Source of the DNA: Thermosinus carboxydivorans Nor1
GTDB taxonomy: Bacteria > Bacillota > Negativicutes > Sporomusales > Thermosinaceae
Direction of reading: 5' to 3'
DNA: 55,751 nt
Assembly (NCBI RefSeq): GCF_000169155.1
Contig: NZ_AAWL01000014.1
Location: 1 to 55,751, forward strand
The translations under genes and the position numbers were made by a program. Positions 19,989 to 31,611 of this stretch are shown piece by piece. The notes beneath the pieces are model-generated. The model ran no database searches. It was not told the origin of the DNA and saw nothing but the letters and a program-made list of their open reading frames with translations. Numbering within the stretch: the stretch's first letter is position 1; every line of letters begins with the position of its first letter.

Positions 19989-20879
19989 TTACTCATCCGC
20001 CATCTTCACAGGCTGGTATTTGCTATGAACCAAAGCCTCGCGCATCTCCCTGGCTTGGGAAAGAAATGCCGCTAATCCGGAAACATCGTTTTCTTCGAGA
20101 TTTTGGGTAACCCGTTGCAGCACTTCTTGCAATTGTTTTAAGGAGTTAATGATCTGCGTTCGGTTCGAAAAGCAAATATCGACCCATAACGCGGGATTGG
20201 ATGCGGCAATGCGGGTCATATCACGAAATCCACCGGCCGCTAGCGACAGACTTAAATGGGAGTGTTTGCCACTGCCCGCCAAATTTACCAGCGCGGCGGC
20301 CATAATATGCGGGATATGGCTGATTTGCGCGACCACCATATCGTGCAGTTCCCCGTCCATCACGACCGGAATAGCGCCTATGGCGGTAATAATTTGCCGC
20401 AATCTGGCCATGGCCTCATCGCTTGCCTTTTCCGGTTGGGTAAGGATATAGGGCCTGCCAACAAAAAGTTCGGCATGAGCGGCAGTGAAACCGCTTTTTT
20501 CCGAACCGGCCATGGGGTGACCGCCGATGTAGGTAACTTCCCGCGGCATAAGACCCGGTACCGTGGCTAATAGGCAGCCTTTGGCGCTGGCTACGTCCGT
20601 AATGACCGCCCCTGGCTTAAAATAAGGTGCCGCCTCAGCTATTGCGGCCGGAATATGGCTGACCGGCAAACAAAAAATTACGACATCGGCGCCGTTAACT
20701 GCCTCATGAATTTTTGTTTCCGCCCGGTCAACCGCGCCTGCCTGAAGCGCCTGCTTTAGTGTATCAGCCGAAATATCACAGCCGCATACGCTATGATTAG
20801 TATACTTTTTTAGAGCCAGCGCCAATGAACCGCCAATCAACCCTAGTCCAACAACGGCGACAACCAATCTGCCGTTCAT
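19989..20879 (-). CDS. tyrA: Prephenate dehydrogenase
   Basis: This 296-residue enzyme oxidatively decarboxylates prephenate to 4-hydroxyphenylpyruvate for tyrosine synthesis. The NAD-binding motif is [16 protein letters not shown] and the active-site region includes [13 protein letters not shown]. No C-terminal ACT domain is present, so allosteric control by Tyr may be weak and control may rest on the T-box. Its ATG overlaps the aroF stop (ATGA). Confidence 0.95.
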
Positions 20880-21891
20880 GCTGAATGCCTCCGCAAAAAG
20901 GCCGCCAGCTCTCGTACATCTTCCATAAGGGCGGCAAAATTCGCCGGATTTAACGACTGCGGCCCGTCGCTCAGCGCCTCGGCCGGATTGGGATGGACCT
21001 CAATGAGTAAACCGTCCGCTCCCGCCGCCACAGCTGCCATGGCCATCGGTCGCACCAAGCGCCATTTGCCGGTACCGTGGCTGGGATCAACAATGACCGG
21101 CAAGTGGCTTAAGTGTTTAATAGCGCCAACGGCACTAAGATCTAAGGTGTTGCGGGTATATTCCTCAAAAGTGCGAATACCGCGCTCACACAGTATGACA
21201 TTGTAATTGCCTTCGTTTAAAATATACTCGGCGGCATGGAGCCACTCGGCGATAGTGGCGGCAATCCCCCTTTTGAGAAGTACAGGTTTGCCGCATCGCC
21301 CTACTGCTTTTAGCAGATGAAAGTTCTGCATGTTGCGGGCGCCAATTTGGAGAATATCGGCATAGGCCGCCACCAGCTCCACCGATGCTGCATCCATTAC
21401 TTCGGTGACAATTTTCAGGCCTGTTGCCTCGCGGGCTTCCGCCAAATACTGCAGTCCTTGTTCTTCCAAGCCCTGAAAGGCGTAGGGAGATGTACGGGGT
21501 TTAAAAGCCCCACCGCGTAAAATTGCGCGCCGGCGGCGCGGACAATTTCTGCCGTTTCCAAAAGCTGCTCCCGGCTCTCAACGGCACAGGGCCCAGCCAT
21601 TACAACCAGTGAACCGTCACCGATCTTGACTCCGTTGATATCAATGATCGTATCTTCGGGCTTAAACTCCCGGCTGACCAATTTATAACTGGCGGTGATA
21701 GGCACCGCCTTTTCCACGCCGTCAAAGGCCTCAACAGGCAGCGAAGCAATTTTCTTTTTGTCGCCGATAATACCAATAATGGTACGATACTGCCCCTTGG
21801 AAAGGTGCGTTTTAAGCCCCGCCTCATGAATTCGGTCGATAACCTGCTGCACTTGTTCCTCGGTTGCCTCAGGATTCATAACGATTACCAT
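20876..21891 (-). pseudogene. aroF: DAHP synthase (Thermotoga/Bacillus-type), single-base frameshift
   Basis: The N-terminal part (from 21891) holds the ferredoxin-like regulatory domain and [13 protein letters not shown]. At about 21519-21525 the frame breaks: one lost base in CAATTTT changes [19 protein letters not shown] into an unrelated tail that stops at 21415. The remaining catalytic part ([24 protein letters not shown]) continues in another frame to 20876. The restored protein would be 338 residues, the normal length, and no other damage is seen. It catalyses the first shikimate step. As it heads a Tyr T-box operon, real loss would be surprising; sequence error at the T-run is quite possible. 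Confidence 0.88.
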
Positions 21892-28304: not shown

Positions 28305-28923
28305 TGCCCCCACCCCTTTGCGCCGCCCGTACGGCTTGAATGAACCGGTAAATTTTTTCACTATCCTTTGTTCCGTTTGTTTCAACCCCACCGGATACAT
28401 CAACCCCGTCCGGACTCAGTATGCGAATGGCTTCCCCCACATTTTCCGGTGTAAGGCCGCCGGCCACCATCACGCGGTTTTTTAGCCGCCAGCGTAAAGT
28501 TTGCGCATCATTCCAGGCAAAAGCCACTCCCGTTCCGCCGTACTGGCCCGGAACCAAACTGTCAAGCAGCACCCAATCAACGTCATAAGCCTCTATATCG
28601 GCAATATCGAAGCCGCTCCCGATCCTTACCGCTTTAATGACAGGATGTTTTACCGCACGACAATACTCCGGCGTTTCGTCACCATGCAGCTGGACAAAAT
28701 CTAACTGACACTGGCCGGCAATCTCCTGCACCTCCGCCAGCGGCGCATTGACAAACACCCCGACCTTCCCGATTCCCTTAACTGCCCTGGCTATTTTTTG
28801 CGCCGCGTTTAGCTCAATCCGGCGCCGGCTATCGGCAAAGACGAACCCCAGCAAATCGGCGCCGCTTTCTTTGGCGGCCTGAGCAGCCGCAAGTGATGTT
28901 ATGCCGCAGATTTTTATGATAAT
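28282..28923 (-). CDS. trpF: Phosphoribosylanthranilate isomerase with non-standard start codon
   Basis: The frame contains the full TrpF N-terminus IIKICGITSLAAAQAAKESG, including the catalytic Cys, and the active-site segment VQLHGDE. Between an in-frame TAG (28944-28942) and KICG there is no ATG, GTG, TTG or CTG; the codons are TCA ACG GGA GGA GTT ATT ATT ATC ATA AAA. A GGGAGG site (28936-28931) is 7 bases before the second ATT (28923), which is chosen as start, giving 213 residues. A conventional ATG at 28854 would remove the catalytic Cys. The start overlaps the trpD stop, so coupled translation is likely. Confidence 0.85.
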   Translation of the reverse strand: MIIKICGITSLAAAQAAKESGADLLGFVFADSRRRIELNAAQKIARAVKGIGKVGVFVNAPLAEVQEIAGQCQLDFVQLHGDETPEYCRAVKHPVIKAVRIGSGFDIADIEAYDVDWVLLDSLVPGQYGGTGVAFAWNDAQTLRWRLKNRVMVAGGLTPENVGEAIRILSPDGVDVSGGVETNGTKDSEKIYRFIQAVRAAQRGGGNAENHFS

Positions 28924-29942
28924 AATAACTCCTCCCGTTGACTAAATTCTTTTAACTCTTCCAGCTTCGCTAAGGCGGCGCCGCTATCGATGCTGGCGGC
29001 GGCAATGGCTAAGCCGTCTTTTAAGTTGGGCGCCATATCGGCAACCATCAAAGCTGCTGCCGCATTAAGAAGCACAATATCCCGTTTAGGACCGCGCTGA
29101 CCCTGAAGAATGGCCAAGGTAATCGCCGCATTTTTTTCCGGCGAACCTCCTTGATACGCTTCTGAATTAGCGGGAGTAAAGCCATACTCGAGGGGATCAA
29201 TGACATATGACCTTATCTCGCCGTGGTTTACCTCCGCTATCTGGGTAGGCGCCGCTGTCGATATTTCGTCCATGCCGTCAAAGCTGTGCACCACCATTGC
29301 CCGCTGTACGCCAAGCCCAACCAATGCCTCGGCAACCTTTTCCGTTAGCGACCGCTCATAGACGCCAACCAACTGGCAGGTAGCGTTAGCCGGATTAGTT
29401 AGTGGCCCCAGCAGGTTGAAAACCGTTCGGAACCCTAAATCCTGGCGCGGCTTGGCGGCATATTTCATGGCCTGATGAAACAACGGGGCATACAAGAAGC
29501 CAACCTTAACTTCATCAAGGGCTCTGACAACCGCTTGCGCTGGCAAATTGACGTTAATACCTAAAGCGGTGAGCACATCGGCACTGCCACAGGAGCTGGA
29601 AACGCCGCGGTTGCCGTGCTTGGCGACCGTAAGACCGGCGCCGGCCAAGACAAAGGCTACGGTTGTTGATATGTTAAAAGTCCCTTTTTTGTCTCCCCCA
29701 GTACCACAAGTATCGATTACTTGTTTACTGCTGCACTGGATTCTGATGGCATGATTTCGCATCGTTTCGGCAAAACCGGTCACTTCGTCACTTGTTTCGC
29801 CTTTGATCCGCAAAGCGGTAAGAAAGGCGCCGATCTGGGCTTCACTCGCCTGGCCGGACATGATAATATGCATTGCCTGTTTGGCTTCCTCCCGGCCAAG
29901 ATTTTGGCCGCTGACTACTTGAGCGAGAAATTCTTTTAACAT
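28914..29942 (-). CDS. trpD: Anthranilate phosphoribosyltransferase
   Basis: This 342-residue enzyme transfers phosphoribose to anthranilate. Motifs: DTCGTGGDKKGTFNIST for PRPP binding, KHGNRGVSSSCGSADVL, and GPLTNPA. Three ATGs lie together; 29942 is chosen because AGGAGG is 6 bases upstream. It is the first gene of the trp operon, 24 bases after the tandem T-box terminators. Confidence 0.96.
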   Translation of the reverse strand: MLKEFLAQVVSGQNLGREEAKQAMHIIMSGQASEAQIGAFLTALRIKGETSDEVTGFAETMRNHAIRIQCSSKQVIDTCGTGGDKKGTFNISTTVAFVLAGAGLTVAKHGNRGVSSSCGSADVLTALGINVNLPAQAVVRALDEVKVGFLYAPLFHQAMKYAAKPRQDLGFRTVFNLLGPLTNPANATCQLVGVYERSLTEKVAEALVGLGVQRAMVVHSFDGMDEISTAAPTQIAEVNHGEIRSYVIDPLEYGFTPANSEAYQGGSPEKNAAITLAILQGQRGPKRDIVLLNAAAALMVADMAPNLKDGLAIAAASIDSGAALAKLEELKEFSQREELLLS

Positions 29943-29965
29943 TGCCATCCTCCTCACTGTATAAA

Positions 29966-30253
29966 AATAAAAACCATTTCACCCGTAAGGGGCGAAATGG
30001 TTCGCGGTACCACCCTTATTCAGAAAACATAATGTTCTCCCTTTTCAGGCACGGGAACCAAATCCGATACCCTAGCCTGCTAACAGTGGCAACCGACTCG
30101 GCCTACGAAAAATAAAAACCATTTCACCCGTAAGGGGCGAAATGGTTCGCGGTACCACCCTTATTCGGAAAACATAATGTTCTCCCTTTTTTCAGGTACG
30201 GGAACAAAATCCGATACCCTAGCCTGTTAACGGTGGCAACCGGCCCGGCCTAC
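29966..30253 (-). repeat. Tandem direct repeat of T-box 3' module (2 x ~142 bp)
   Basis: Copies at 29966-30106 and 30111-30253 are the same length apart from a 2-base indel in a T-run, and differ by about seven substitutions by eye. They include the Stem III region, the T-box core and the terminator. The terminators are identical. Confidence 0.95.
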
Positions 30254-30400
30254 TTGCCTGTGCGTTCGGGGGGCAGCTCGCGGGTCCATTCAACATGGGC
30301 TTTGGGCCGGTCATCACACCTCCGGTTGCCCGGTCACCGGCTCGCTGCGCCAAAGCTTGCATGCCTACTCTTCCCGTTCACAGCTTTTAACAATTCAATT
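29966..30400 (-). promoter_or_regulatory. T-box riboswitch for trp operon, with duplicated antiterminator/terminator
   Basis: On the minus strand a single Stem I (about 30390-30260) has GAACGGGAAGAGTAGG on its 5' side and CATGTTGAATGGACC on its 3' side; TGG (Trp) is the likely specifier, one base closer to the GA than in the Phe and Tyr leaders here. Two T-box core/terminator modules follow, at 30253-30111 and 30106-29966. Each carries GGTACCGCG and a perfect AACCATTTCGCCCCTTA / GGGTGAAATGGTT terminator with T-run. The second module has no Stem I of its own. Confidence 0.92.
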
Positions 30401-30408
30401 TTAATTAA

Positions 30409-30437
30409 ATCTTAAAACGCGTTGTTCATGTTGTCAA
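30409..30437 (-). promoter_or_regulatory. Promoter of the trp operon
   Basis: On the minus strand TTGACA (30437-30432), a 17-base spacer and TAAGAT (30414-30409) lie directly upstream of the T-box Stem I. Confidence 0.65.
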
Positions 30438-30474: not shown

Positions 30475-31434
30475 TCAAGCGTTTTGAATTGTGGCGAACA
30501 GTTCACCGGCCTGACGGACATCGACATTGCCGCCACTGATGATGACGCCCACCCGCTTGCCTTCGATCGGAAGCTTACAGTGCATTAACGGCGCGAGGCT
30601 AACGGCACCAGAGGGCTCGACGACAATTTTGAGGCGCGTCCATAAAAATTCCATTGTCCTAATAATTTCTTCTTCAGTCACCGTCACCATATCGTCGACG
30701 TATTGCCGTATCAGCGGAAAAGTAATTTTCCCCAGACTGGCCGTCCGCAAACCGTCGGCAATGGTAGGCGGATTATGCACACTTTGCAGCTCGCCGGTTT
30801 TAAACGACCGGGTAGCATCGTCGGCCAAGGCGGGCTCAACACCAATAACCTGACAGCGGGGAAGCAGATGCTTAGCTGCCACAGCACACCCGCTTAATAG
30901 ACCGCCGCCGCCAACCTGAACAAAAAGGTAATCGAGGCTCAGCACCTCTTCAATGAGTTCTTTGGCCACCGTGCCTTGTCCGGCGATAACATCGTAATGG
31001 TCAAACGGAGGAATAAGGGTATAACCGTGCTCACGAATGAGCTTTTCAGCCACTTCTTCCCGCGAAACGGCAGCACGGTCGTAAGTAATGATGGCGGCGC
31101 CATAGTCTTTCGCAGCCGCCAGTTTAACGGCCGGCGCGTCGGCAGGCACGATGACGGTAGCTTTCACTCCCAGGAGCTTGCTGGCCAGCGCTACCGCCTG
31201 GGCATGGTTACCGGACGAATAAGTAATCACCCCTTTTTCCCGCTGCGCCGCCGACAAAGAGCTGATAGCGTTGTAGGCCCCGCGAAATTTGAACGCGCCC
31301 ATACGTTGAAAATTTTCACACTTTAAAAAGACCATGTTGCCTGTCCGTTCGTCCAACAAACGGGAAGTCAGCACCGGAGTTTTGTGAGCGACACCGGCCA
31401 ACCGGCTGGCGGCAGCCGCAATTTGTTCATACAT
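30475..31434 (-). CDS. Threonine/serine dehydratase (short, without ACT domain)
   Basis: This 319-residue PLP protein shows the lysine K49 in MGAFKFRGAYNA and the glycine loop VGGGGLLSG. It lacks the C-terminal regulatory domain of biosynthetic IlvA, so it is closer to the catabolic TdcB or short IlvA type; the two are hard to separate by eye. ATG 31434 follows AAAGGAGG. It stands alone upstream of the trp promoter; its stop is close to that promoter. Confidence 0.9.
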   Translation of the reverse strand: MYEQIAAAASRLAGVAHKTPVLTSRLLDERTGNMVFLKCENFQRMGAFKFRGAYNAISSLSAAQREKGVITYSSGNHAQAVALASKLLGVKATVIVPADAPAVKLAAAKDYGAAIITYDRAAVSREEVAEKLIREHGYTLIPPFDHYDVIAGQGTVAKELIEEVLSLDYLFVQVGGGGLLSGCAVAAKHLLPRCQVIGVEPALADDATRSFKTGELQSVHNPPTIADGLRTASLGKITFPLIRQYVDDMVTVTEEEIIRTMEFLWTRLKIVVEPSGAVSLAPLMHCKLPIEGKRVGVIISGGNVDVRQAGELFATIQNA

Positions 31435-31611
31435 GGAATAGTTCCTCCTTTGGGTTTTGATAGAGGACATTGAAAGAAAACAGAGAATTGGTATATAGTT
31501 CTTTTTCCATGCCTGACGGAATTTTCCTGTTTAAATTGACACAATCCGTTCAGAATTATTAGAAATAATCGGTTAGCTGCCTCGACCGGGCAGCCTAAAA
31601 CGGCCCATGAG

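Follow-up and report, generated by a model that had tools for sequence, protein, structure and literature searches.

The window, meaning the whole 55,751-nucleotide stretch of the Thermosinus carboxydivorans Nor1 genome that was analyzed, carries a T-box leader on its minus strand (30390-29963) between a PALP-family gene (30475-31470; PF00291) and trpD. Its sequence and the Rfam alignment give it a tRNA-Trp-type UGG specifier and place it ahead of trpDFCBAEG, in a position to regulate that operon. Pfam domains put the genes 3′ of the leader in the order trpD, trpF, trpC, trpB, trpA, trpE, and trpG, the last being assigned from a GATase domain together with its place in the operon. Translation of trpD probably starts at the ATG at 29942 and not at the GTG of the open frame; in relatives, trpD as read by eye starts at the corresponding ATG. 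A second candidate promoter, besides the one listed in Table 1, lies at 30478-30451.

A first-pass annotation of this DNA had described a tRNA-Trp T-box with a single Stem I and two tandem antiterminator/terminator modules that form two gates in series, and both parts of that description are borne out. The Rfam T-box model (RF00230) aligns to 30390-30130 with 115.7 bits against a gathering cut-off of 93, a span that corresponds to Stem I and module 1, and the UGG specifier matches the pathway encoded by the downstream trp operon. Module 2 gave no match to the Rfam T-box model at the gathering threshold. Since the model reports only the first gate here, surveys built on Rfam may undercount double-gated leaders. 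The second gate is instead apparent from direct repeats, with 29963-30045 matching 30108-30190 at 99% identity over 83 nt and 30042-30106 matching 30189-30253 at 91% over 65 nt (repeat spacing, 145-147). The T-box core GGGUGGUACCGCG is found at both 30160-30148 and 30015-30003, and an antiterminator with a UGGNACC bulge competes with a terminator twice, as judged by sequence and folds. The 132 nt separating the cores consist of terminator 1 and a copied Stem II strand, IIA/B, and Stem III, with no Stem I. The annotation's further statement that only the expression platform had been copied falls somewhat short, as the copy begins within the 3′ strand of Stem II (the only part of Stem II that recurs in the direct repeats) and takes in IIA/B and Stem III.

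Table 1. Features of the trp leader and its surroundings in the window
Feature	Position	Strand	Basis and remarks
Candidate sigma-70 promoter, TTGACA-17-TAAGAT	30409-30437	minus	Consensus scan, 10/12 matches; not evidence of function
Stem I	30276-30390	minus	RF00230 alignment, sequence; end placed by eye; specifier UGG (Trp) at 30288-30286
Stem II with AGUA of S-turn	30243-30275	minus	Rfam alignment, repeats; limits by eye
Module 1 (proximal repeat unit): Stem II 3′ strand, IIA/B with F-box CCGUUA, Stem III, antiterminator/terminator	30108-30253	minus	Direct repeats, Rfam alignment
Stem III of module 1, GGGAGAACAUUAUGUUUUCC	30167-30186	minus	Fold
Antiterminator 1, T-box bulge UGGUACC	30131-30163	minus	Fold, -10.1 kcal/mol; core
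Terminator 1, 14 pairs, U tract to about 30108	30116-30148	minus	Consensus scan, fold
Module 2 (distal repeat unit)	29963-30106	minus	Direct repeats; also in the second species (G001)
Stem III of module 2, complete and local	30022-30041	minus	Fold
Antiterminator 2, T-box bulge UGGUACC	29986-30018	minus	Same sequence as antiterminator 1
Terminator 2, 14 pairs, U tract to about 29963	29971-30003	minus	Consensus scan, fold
trpD, first gene of trpDFCBAEG	28914-29957	minus	PF00591, PF02885; ORF list

A consensus scan detected two terminators where shuffled sequences predict 0.9, and a U tract follows each. The 57-nt terminator stretches of the two modules are identical and fold at -22.9 kcal/mol (z -4.2). 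The antiterminator, also the same in both modules, reaches only -10.1 kcal/mol on its own, which is ordinary for its composition (z -1.2), and the far stronger terminator fold is what one expects of a switch that remains open only with assistance. When the whole leader is folded, which at 441 nt is weak evidence, the minimum-energy structure pairs Stem III of module 1 (30185-30167) with Stem III of module 2 (30022-30040) and lacks antiterminator 2. Folding also closes the foot of helix A2 with a G-C pair in both modules (30163-30131 and 30018-29986); a 2020 review names a G-U wobble at this place as the chief sensor of the aminoacyl group (PMC7583486).

The cognate tRNA can be identified in the same genome. 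A tRNA-Trp pattern hit three sites, two of which ARAGORN confirms as tRNA-Trp genes, and both of these have G73 and end in G-CCA. The bulges read UGGU, so the discriminator base would pair with the variable bulge position as a G:U wobble. According to the TBDB paper, U occupies this bulge position in 46% of the Trp T-boxes in that database, and the same wobble has been suggested (PMC7778990). In all 78 consecutive core pairs of the loci examined, the variable position holds U or C in each core, which means that the same tRNA end could be recognized by both.

With one Stem I and two antiterminator/terminator units, the leader has the makeup of a partially tandem T-box, and its single Stem I sets it apart from the fully tandem kind, which has a Stem I for each platform. 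We think it probable that the leader acts on transcription as a tRNA-Trp T-box riboswitch of the partially tandem type, in which two complete discriminators, each with its own intrinsic terminator, would test one tRNA twice. Duplicated terminator-antiterminator elements were reportedly described by Vitreschak et al. in 2008, and we take theirs to be the earlier report of cooperative double T-boxes that later literature cites. Citing an earlier report, one such paper states that double T-boxes may cooperate and respond more sharply (PMC9413887). The novelty that the first-pass annotation implied does not stand, as partially tandem T-boxes were already named in the 2020 review, which lists their mode of action as open (PMC7583486). 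By name, that group resembles the leader of the window in repeating the antiterminator/terminator without the full leader and in preceding amino-acid genes. Relative to these and to T-boxes with duplicated terminator-antiterminator elements, the copy in the window is long: it includes a Stem III of its own and what is left of Stem II and IIA/B. The window thus holds a long member of an already known kind; that two gates can share a Stem III, as discussed below, is a proposal.

A second species of the genus (G001) shares the layout, with 93% identity to the window over 501 nt, and a comparison of the two indicates which parts of module 2 are kept. The modules are 91.3% identical to each other in the genome of the window (G000) and 84.0% in G001; between species, module 1 is 95.3% identical and module 2 is 87.3%. 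Changed columns of the alignment (substitutions plus gaps) were counted per segment. The upstream/promoter region has 15/99 changed, Stem I 2/116, and Stem II 1/32. Module 1 has 2/50 in IIA/B and the stretch before Stem III, 1/27 in Stem III, and 4/59 in the antiterminator/terminator with its tail. The corresponding counts for module 2 are 15/61 for the Stem II strand, IIA/B, and the stretch before Stem III, 4/27 for Stem III, and 0/59 for the antiterminator/terminator. No column is changed among the 20 ahead of the start codon, and 9/127 are changed at the start of trpD. Within module 2, the difference between 0/59 and the 15/61 of the copied upstream stretch gives a Fisher value of 2e-5 from this single pair of species. 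The copied stretch also differs from its nearest module 1 equivalent (15/61 against 2/50, p 0.003), a comparison of unequal segments in that the module 2 stretch includes the Stem II strand. The antiterminator/terminator of module 2 is held while the copied Stem II and IIA/B drift at least as fast as the upstream region, and what is kept would amount to a second tRNA-end sensor with its terminator. Gene conversion between the modules could contribute to the 0/59. Strand exchange at Stem II was considered for the leader of the window and rejected, given that AGUA and the F-box are lost in module 2 of G001 and the region drifts; the Stem II 5′ strand forms duplexes of similar energy with either module (-9.8 with module 1 and -8.9 with module 2 in G000; -11.0 and -12.7 in G001).

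The first-pass annotation had suggested looking for the layout in related genomes. Beyond the second species, which has the same one, related double-platform layouts occur in many genomes of the class. A DNA search with the leader found matches in 78/100 relatives at E <= 0.001, the weak ones including other T-boxes. Leaving those weak matches aside, 68 Trp loci among the matches listed, 38 of them retrieved by hand, were classified by eye. One Stem I with two cores is present at 32, two Stem I-core units at 16, and a single unit at another 16; contig ends cut three (L027, L133, L138), and one (L137) is odd. A motif match between the cores of L022 was counted as spurious, the 86 nt there being too short for a Stem I, and L115 has one mismatch in its second core. 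The odd locus (G006:C59) shows two tandem units in which Stem I is without the specifier region, either a real arrangement or an assembly effect. A TrpD start lies downstream of 13 of the 17 Trp leaders read for it, the exceptions being L031, L118, L140, and L143. In two of the single-platform leaders, L029 and L032, a faint remnant that looks like a decayed second core (TAGGGTGCTGGTA and TAGGGTACTAGTA) follows core 1 and perhaps marks loss of a second gate. In some double-core leaders (e.g., G023:C39 and G053:C1:1736883), the arm before the T run appears by eye to be partly complementary to the T-box core and not to the 3′ strands of A1/A2, perhaps a different terminator design.

An exact pattern for short-spaced leaders (two cores, a T run between them, and no space for a Stem I) was matched by 113/380 genomes of the class. 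The pattern demands ACC in core 2 and consequently misses variants; its reversed control gave none among the matches listed for the same 380 genomes. In a sample of the phylum, 18/398 genomes match; members of the class make up 14/398 of those sampled and 4/18 of those matched (G000, G029, G059, and G066), and 14/384 match outside the class. A long-form pattern with an 88-118 gap matched only 2/100 relatives, both of this genus. A two-core pattern with a 60-90 gap, which is unable to match the window, found other forms in 9/380, including three triple-core leaders and two 107-nt Trp leaders. The genes that follow 30 of the class loci (L077-L106), named from their first residues by eye, resemble SerC, a sodium:solute symporter, TrpD, and DAHP synthase, and some are left without an assignment. 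Three successive cores occur in L108 (G053), L106 (G062), and L167 (G069). One apparent Phe Stem I precedes all three cores of L108, and a DAHP synthase-like gene follows the triple cores of both L108 and L106. Like the leader of the window, these short-spaced leaders have two and sometimes three cores with no space for a second Stem I; they differ in that the cores are about 60-107 nt apart and that, in most of those tested, gate 2 is not preceded by a good 5′ strand for a separate Stem III. The genome of the window itself holds a second two-core T-box (L107, G000:C3:105611-105711), with bulges UGGCAAC then UGGCACC and a transposase-like gene next to it on the opposite strand.

The cores of the relatives bear on whether module 2 senses tRNA at all. 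The ACC of the bulge stabilizes the tRNA-end sensor (PMC7583486). In 30 partially tandem Trp leaders outside this genus, its middle C is changed in 28/30 first cores and in 0/30 second cores; in the window, both cores have the consensus. If module 2 were a mere second terminator, cutting basal transcription by a fixed factor with the T-box irrelevant, the decay of its Stem II/IIA/B part would be expected, but its bulge and antiterminator strands would have no reason to be as unchanged as the terminator arms, its Stem III pairs despite the changed columns, and the middle C of core 2 is kept throughout the other partially tandem Trp leaders. This explanation survives best among the alternatives and is still unlikely. 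A weak core 1 was also considered as a mark of hand-over between gates and set aside as unspecific, the middle C being changed in 11/16 single-platform leaders too (8 of these 11 from one genus).

How a second gate could function without its own Stem III is suggested by the linker, the piece from terminator 1 to core 2, in the short-spaced leaders. The linkers of L005 and L135 include part of terminator 1 in the 26-leader shuffles, the alignment-direction counts, and the 11-nt counts described here. Among short Trp leaders, the structure of the linker itself lies above -4 kcal/mol in 22/26, and in L135 too (local fold 0.0). Many of these linkers can pair with the Stem III ahead of core 1, mostly through the 5′ strand and loop of that hairpin, and some with the entire hairpin and the AA that follows. 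Dinucleotide-preserving shuffles of 26 short Trp leaders (L008 was excluded for its 208-nt spacing) gave p <= 0.01 in 15, 0.01-0.05 in 4, and > 0.05 in 7. Shuffles that preserve base composition gave 0.083 for L005, 0.010 for L135, 0.010 for L115, 0.373 for L140, and 0.027 for L143, and the leaders above 0.05 among 29 number seven (L005, L125, L130, L131, L132, L140, and L142). Exchanging partners between genera is preferred, as it is a better control for composition and common descent. For 29 Trp leaders from 15 genera, the mean energy was -16.2 kcal/mol with the leader's own Stem III and -10.6 (sd 0.82) with permuted partners, a value reached in 0/40,000 permutations; 26 leaders from 14 genera with uncorrected linkers had the same outcome (-16.5 own, -10.8 permuted). 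Limiting the linker to its last 22 nt, with one leader per genus, gave -15.1 versus -9.4 (sd 0.87; 0/5,000). The result extends to 16 loci in 14 genomes outside the class (-14.3 versus -10.2 kcal/mol, sd 0.83; 0/5,000), where the own partner is best of its row in just 3/16, and to 14 mixed loci, of which two lie outside the class (-14.5 versus -9.0, sd 0.78; 0/5,000). At other loci, 22/51 core pairs reach p 0.05 by simple shuffling that preserves base composition and 29/51 do not; this set counts related loci apart, includes one TrpD-like locus and at least one linker (L147) that contains part of terminator 1, and excludes L077 for its short linker.

The pairing was also followed along an alignment of nine Sporomusa-type leaders, from which L017 was omitted because it hardly differs from L016. 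Bases can pair in 94.8% of the cells of the 13 proposed pairs, and a shift of one to three columns lowers this to 29-50%. The covariation score was matched by 19/500 shuffles and one pair alone changes on both sides, so support within this group is modest. By a rough count in which any part of the Stem III region may serve as partner, the 11 nt preceding the flank favor the first Stem III region over their own linker by >2 kcal/mol in 23/29 Trp leaders; five are undecided (L001, L004, L008, L142, and L145), and L135, whose linker was cut wrongly, goes the opposite way. The same count for other core pairs favors the first Stem III in 43/51, with six undecided and two opposite (L159 and L160). 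A plain decayed copy of Stem III was considered as the origin of the linker, as a copied hairpin would complement its original anyway. However, antisense alignment of the linker to Stem III beats direct alignment in 20/27 leaders (3 ties, 4 reverse), which argues that copying is not the whole explanation, and it may account for part of the complementarity. The window stands outside this proposed shared-Stem III subtype, in which the linker gives only the 3′ strand: its module 2 has a full local Stem III (-8.6 kcal/mol), and pairing with the Stem III of module 1 (-8.9 kcal/mol) is possible and not required.

Taken with what is known of the discriminator, these observations suggest a mechanism. 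Stem III belongs to the tRNA-end sensor, and the antiterminator alone binds tRNA poorly (PMC7583486). A gate 2 without a Stem III 5′ strand would thus have to borrow one, and the candidate is the Stem III of gate 1. Such borrowing would dismantle the sensor of gate 1 and build that of gate 2 at the same place relative to Stem I, so the linker pairing suggests that, in the short-spaced relatives, a tRNA bound to Stem I could move on from the first gate to the second by strand exchange. For the leader of the window, uncharged tRNA-Trp on Stem I would dock its 3′ end in bulge 1, allowing RNA polymerase to pass terminator 1. As module 2 emerges, that end could be freed when terminator 1 folds late or when the new Stem III pairs with the old one, and it would then be tested anew in bulge 2. 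Under this scheme, trpD would be reached only after both tests succeed, and leak would be multiplied down when tRNA-Trp is charged; we infer all steps in which the tRNA moves. As the first-pass annotation had suggested, the response might be steeper, or the same tRNA might act twice. More generally, we suggest tentatively, and short of calling it probable, that multi-gate T-boxes hand one tRNA along two or three gates by Stem III strand exchange to recheck its charge. Such a design would serve Trp, Ser, and Phe genes, and the window would hold a long form of it that retains its own Stem III.

A different use of the second discriminator would be to capture another uncharged tRNA independently of Stem I, with the first tRNA remaining at gate 1. 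Module 2 does carry a complete Stem III and antiterminator, and the discriminator has been called necessary and sufficient for sensing aminoacylation (PMC7583486). Yet codon specificity would vanish at gate 2, and the Stem IIIs of the short-spaced relatives appear to share one 5′ strand, so that their discriminators could not coexist, which argues for one tRNA passed on. We rank this reading next after a mere second terminator and find it likewise improbable. The comparative data favor one reused tRNA over two in the short-spaced relatives and do not bear directly on the window. Gate 2 there owns a complete Stem III, so the shared-strand argument is not directly applicable and a hand-over is something we infer; the tRNA may be released otherwise, for instance by terminator 1 folding behind the polymerase. 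A young neutral duplication without function, which the 91.3% identity of the G000 copies might suggest, is very improbable when the copy is present in both species of the genus with uneven conservation and similar layouts are spread across many families. Finally, an assembly duplication, which would have undone the first-pass annotation and is conceivable for a draft genome of 49 contigs, can be dismissed, as G001 has the same layout in a different sequence (the 93% over 501 nt) and its own copies have diverged.

The comparison with other tandem regulators helps to place a one-sensor, two-gate design. Fully tandem trp T-boxes (PMC12452182; L010, L109, L112, and others here) share two serial terminators and Trp specificity with the window but have a Stem I for each platform, as do 16/68 of the Trp leaders among the matches listed. 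The tandem glycine riboswitch (PMC12452182) likewise has unequal numbers of sensors and platforms; it combines two sensors with one platform, and the window is its mirror image. As far as the available part of that 2025 survey goes, contiguous riboswitches are repeated whole units or adjacent sensors with one platform, and a class with one sensor and several platforms was not seen there (PMC12452182). A Stem III common to two gates was not found described in the literature searched, part of it available only in part and with supplementary files and Vitreschak 2008 outside its scope. If the tentative mechanism is true, RNAs repeat a charge test in series on one bound ligand, a form of double-checking absent from the literature examined, which was available in part. 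With two autonomous, identical gates behind one sensor, the leader of the window is a natural construct well suited to asking if a single tRNA is able to undergo two tests, and the short-spaced relatives supply a specific and mutable prediction in the pairing of linker and Stem III.

The same window holds two further T-boxes of the aromatic cluster on the minus strand, assigned from specifiers and genes read by eye. One at 23423-23167 is apparently specific for Phe (UUC) and precedes a prephenate dehydratase-like gene; the other, at 22209-21945, is apparently specific for Tyr (UAC) and precedes DAHP synthase-like and prephenate dehydrogenase-like genes. Each has one core in the part scanned. 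The DAHP synthase-like frame looks split into overlapping minus-strand frames (21415-21891 and 20876-21469), owing to a frameshift that belongs either to the gene itself or to the draft assembly. A 16S rRNA gene runs off the edge of the window, with only its start present, at positions 1-542 of the minus strand.
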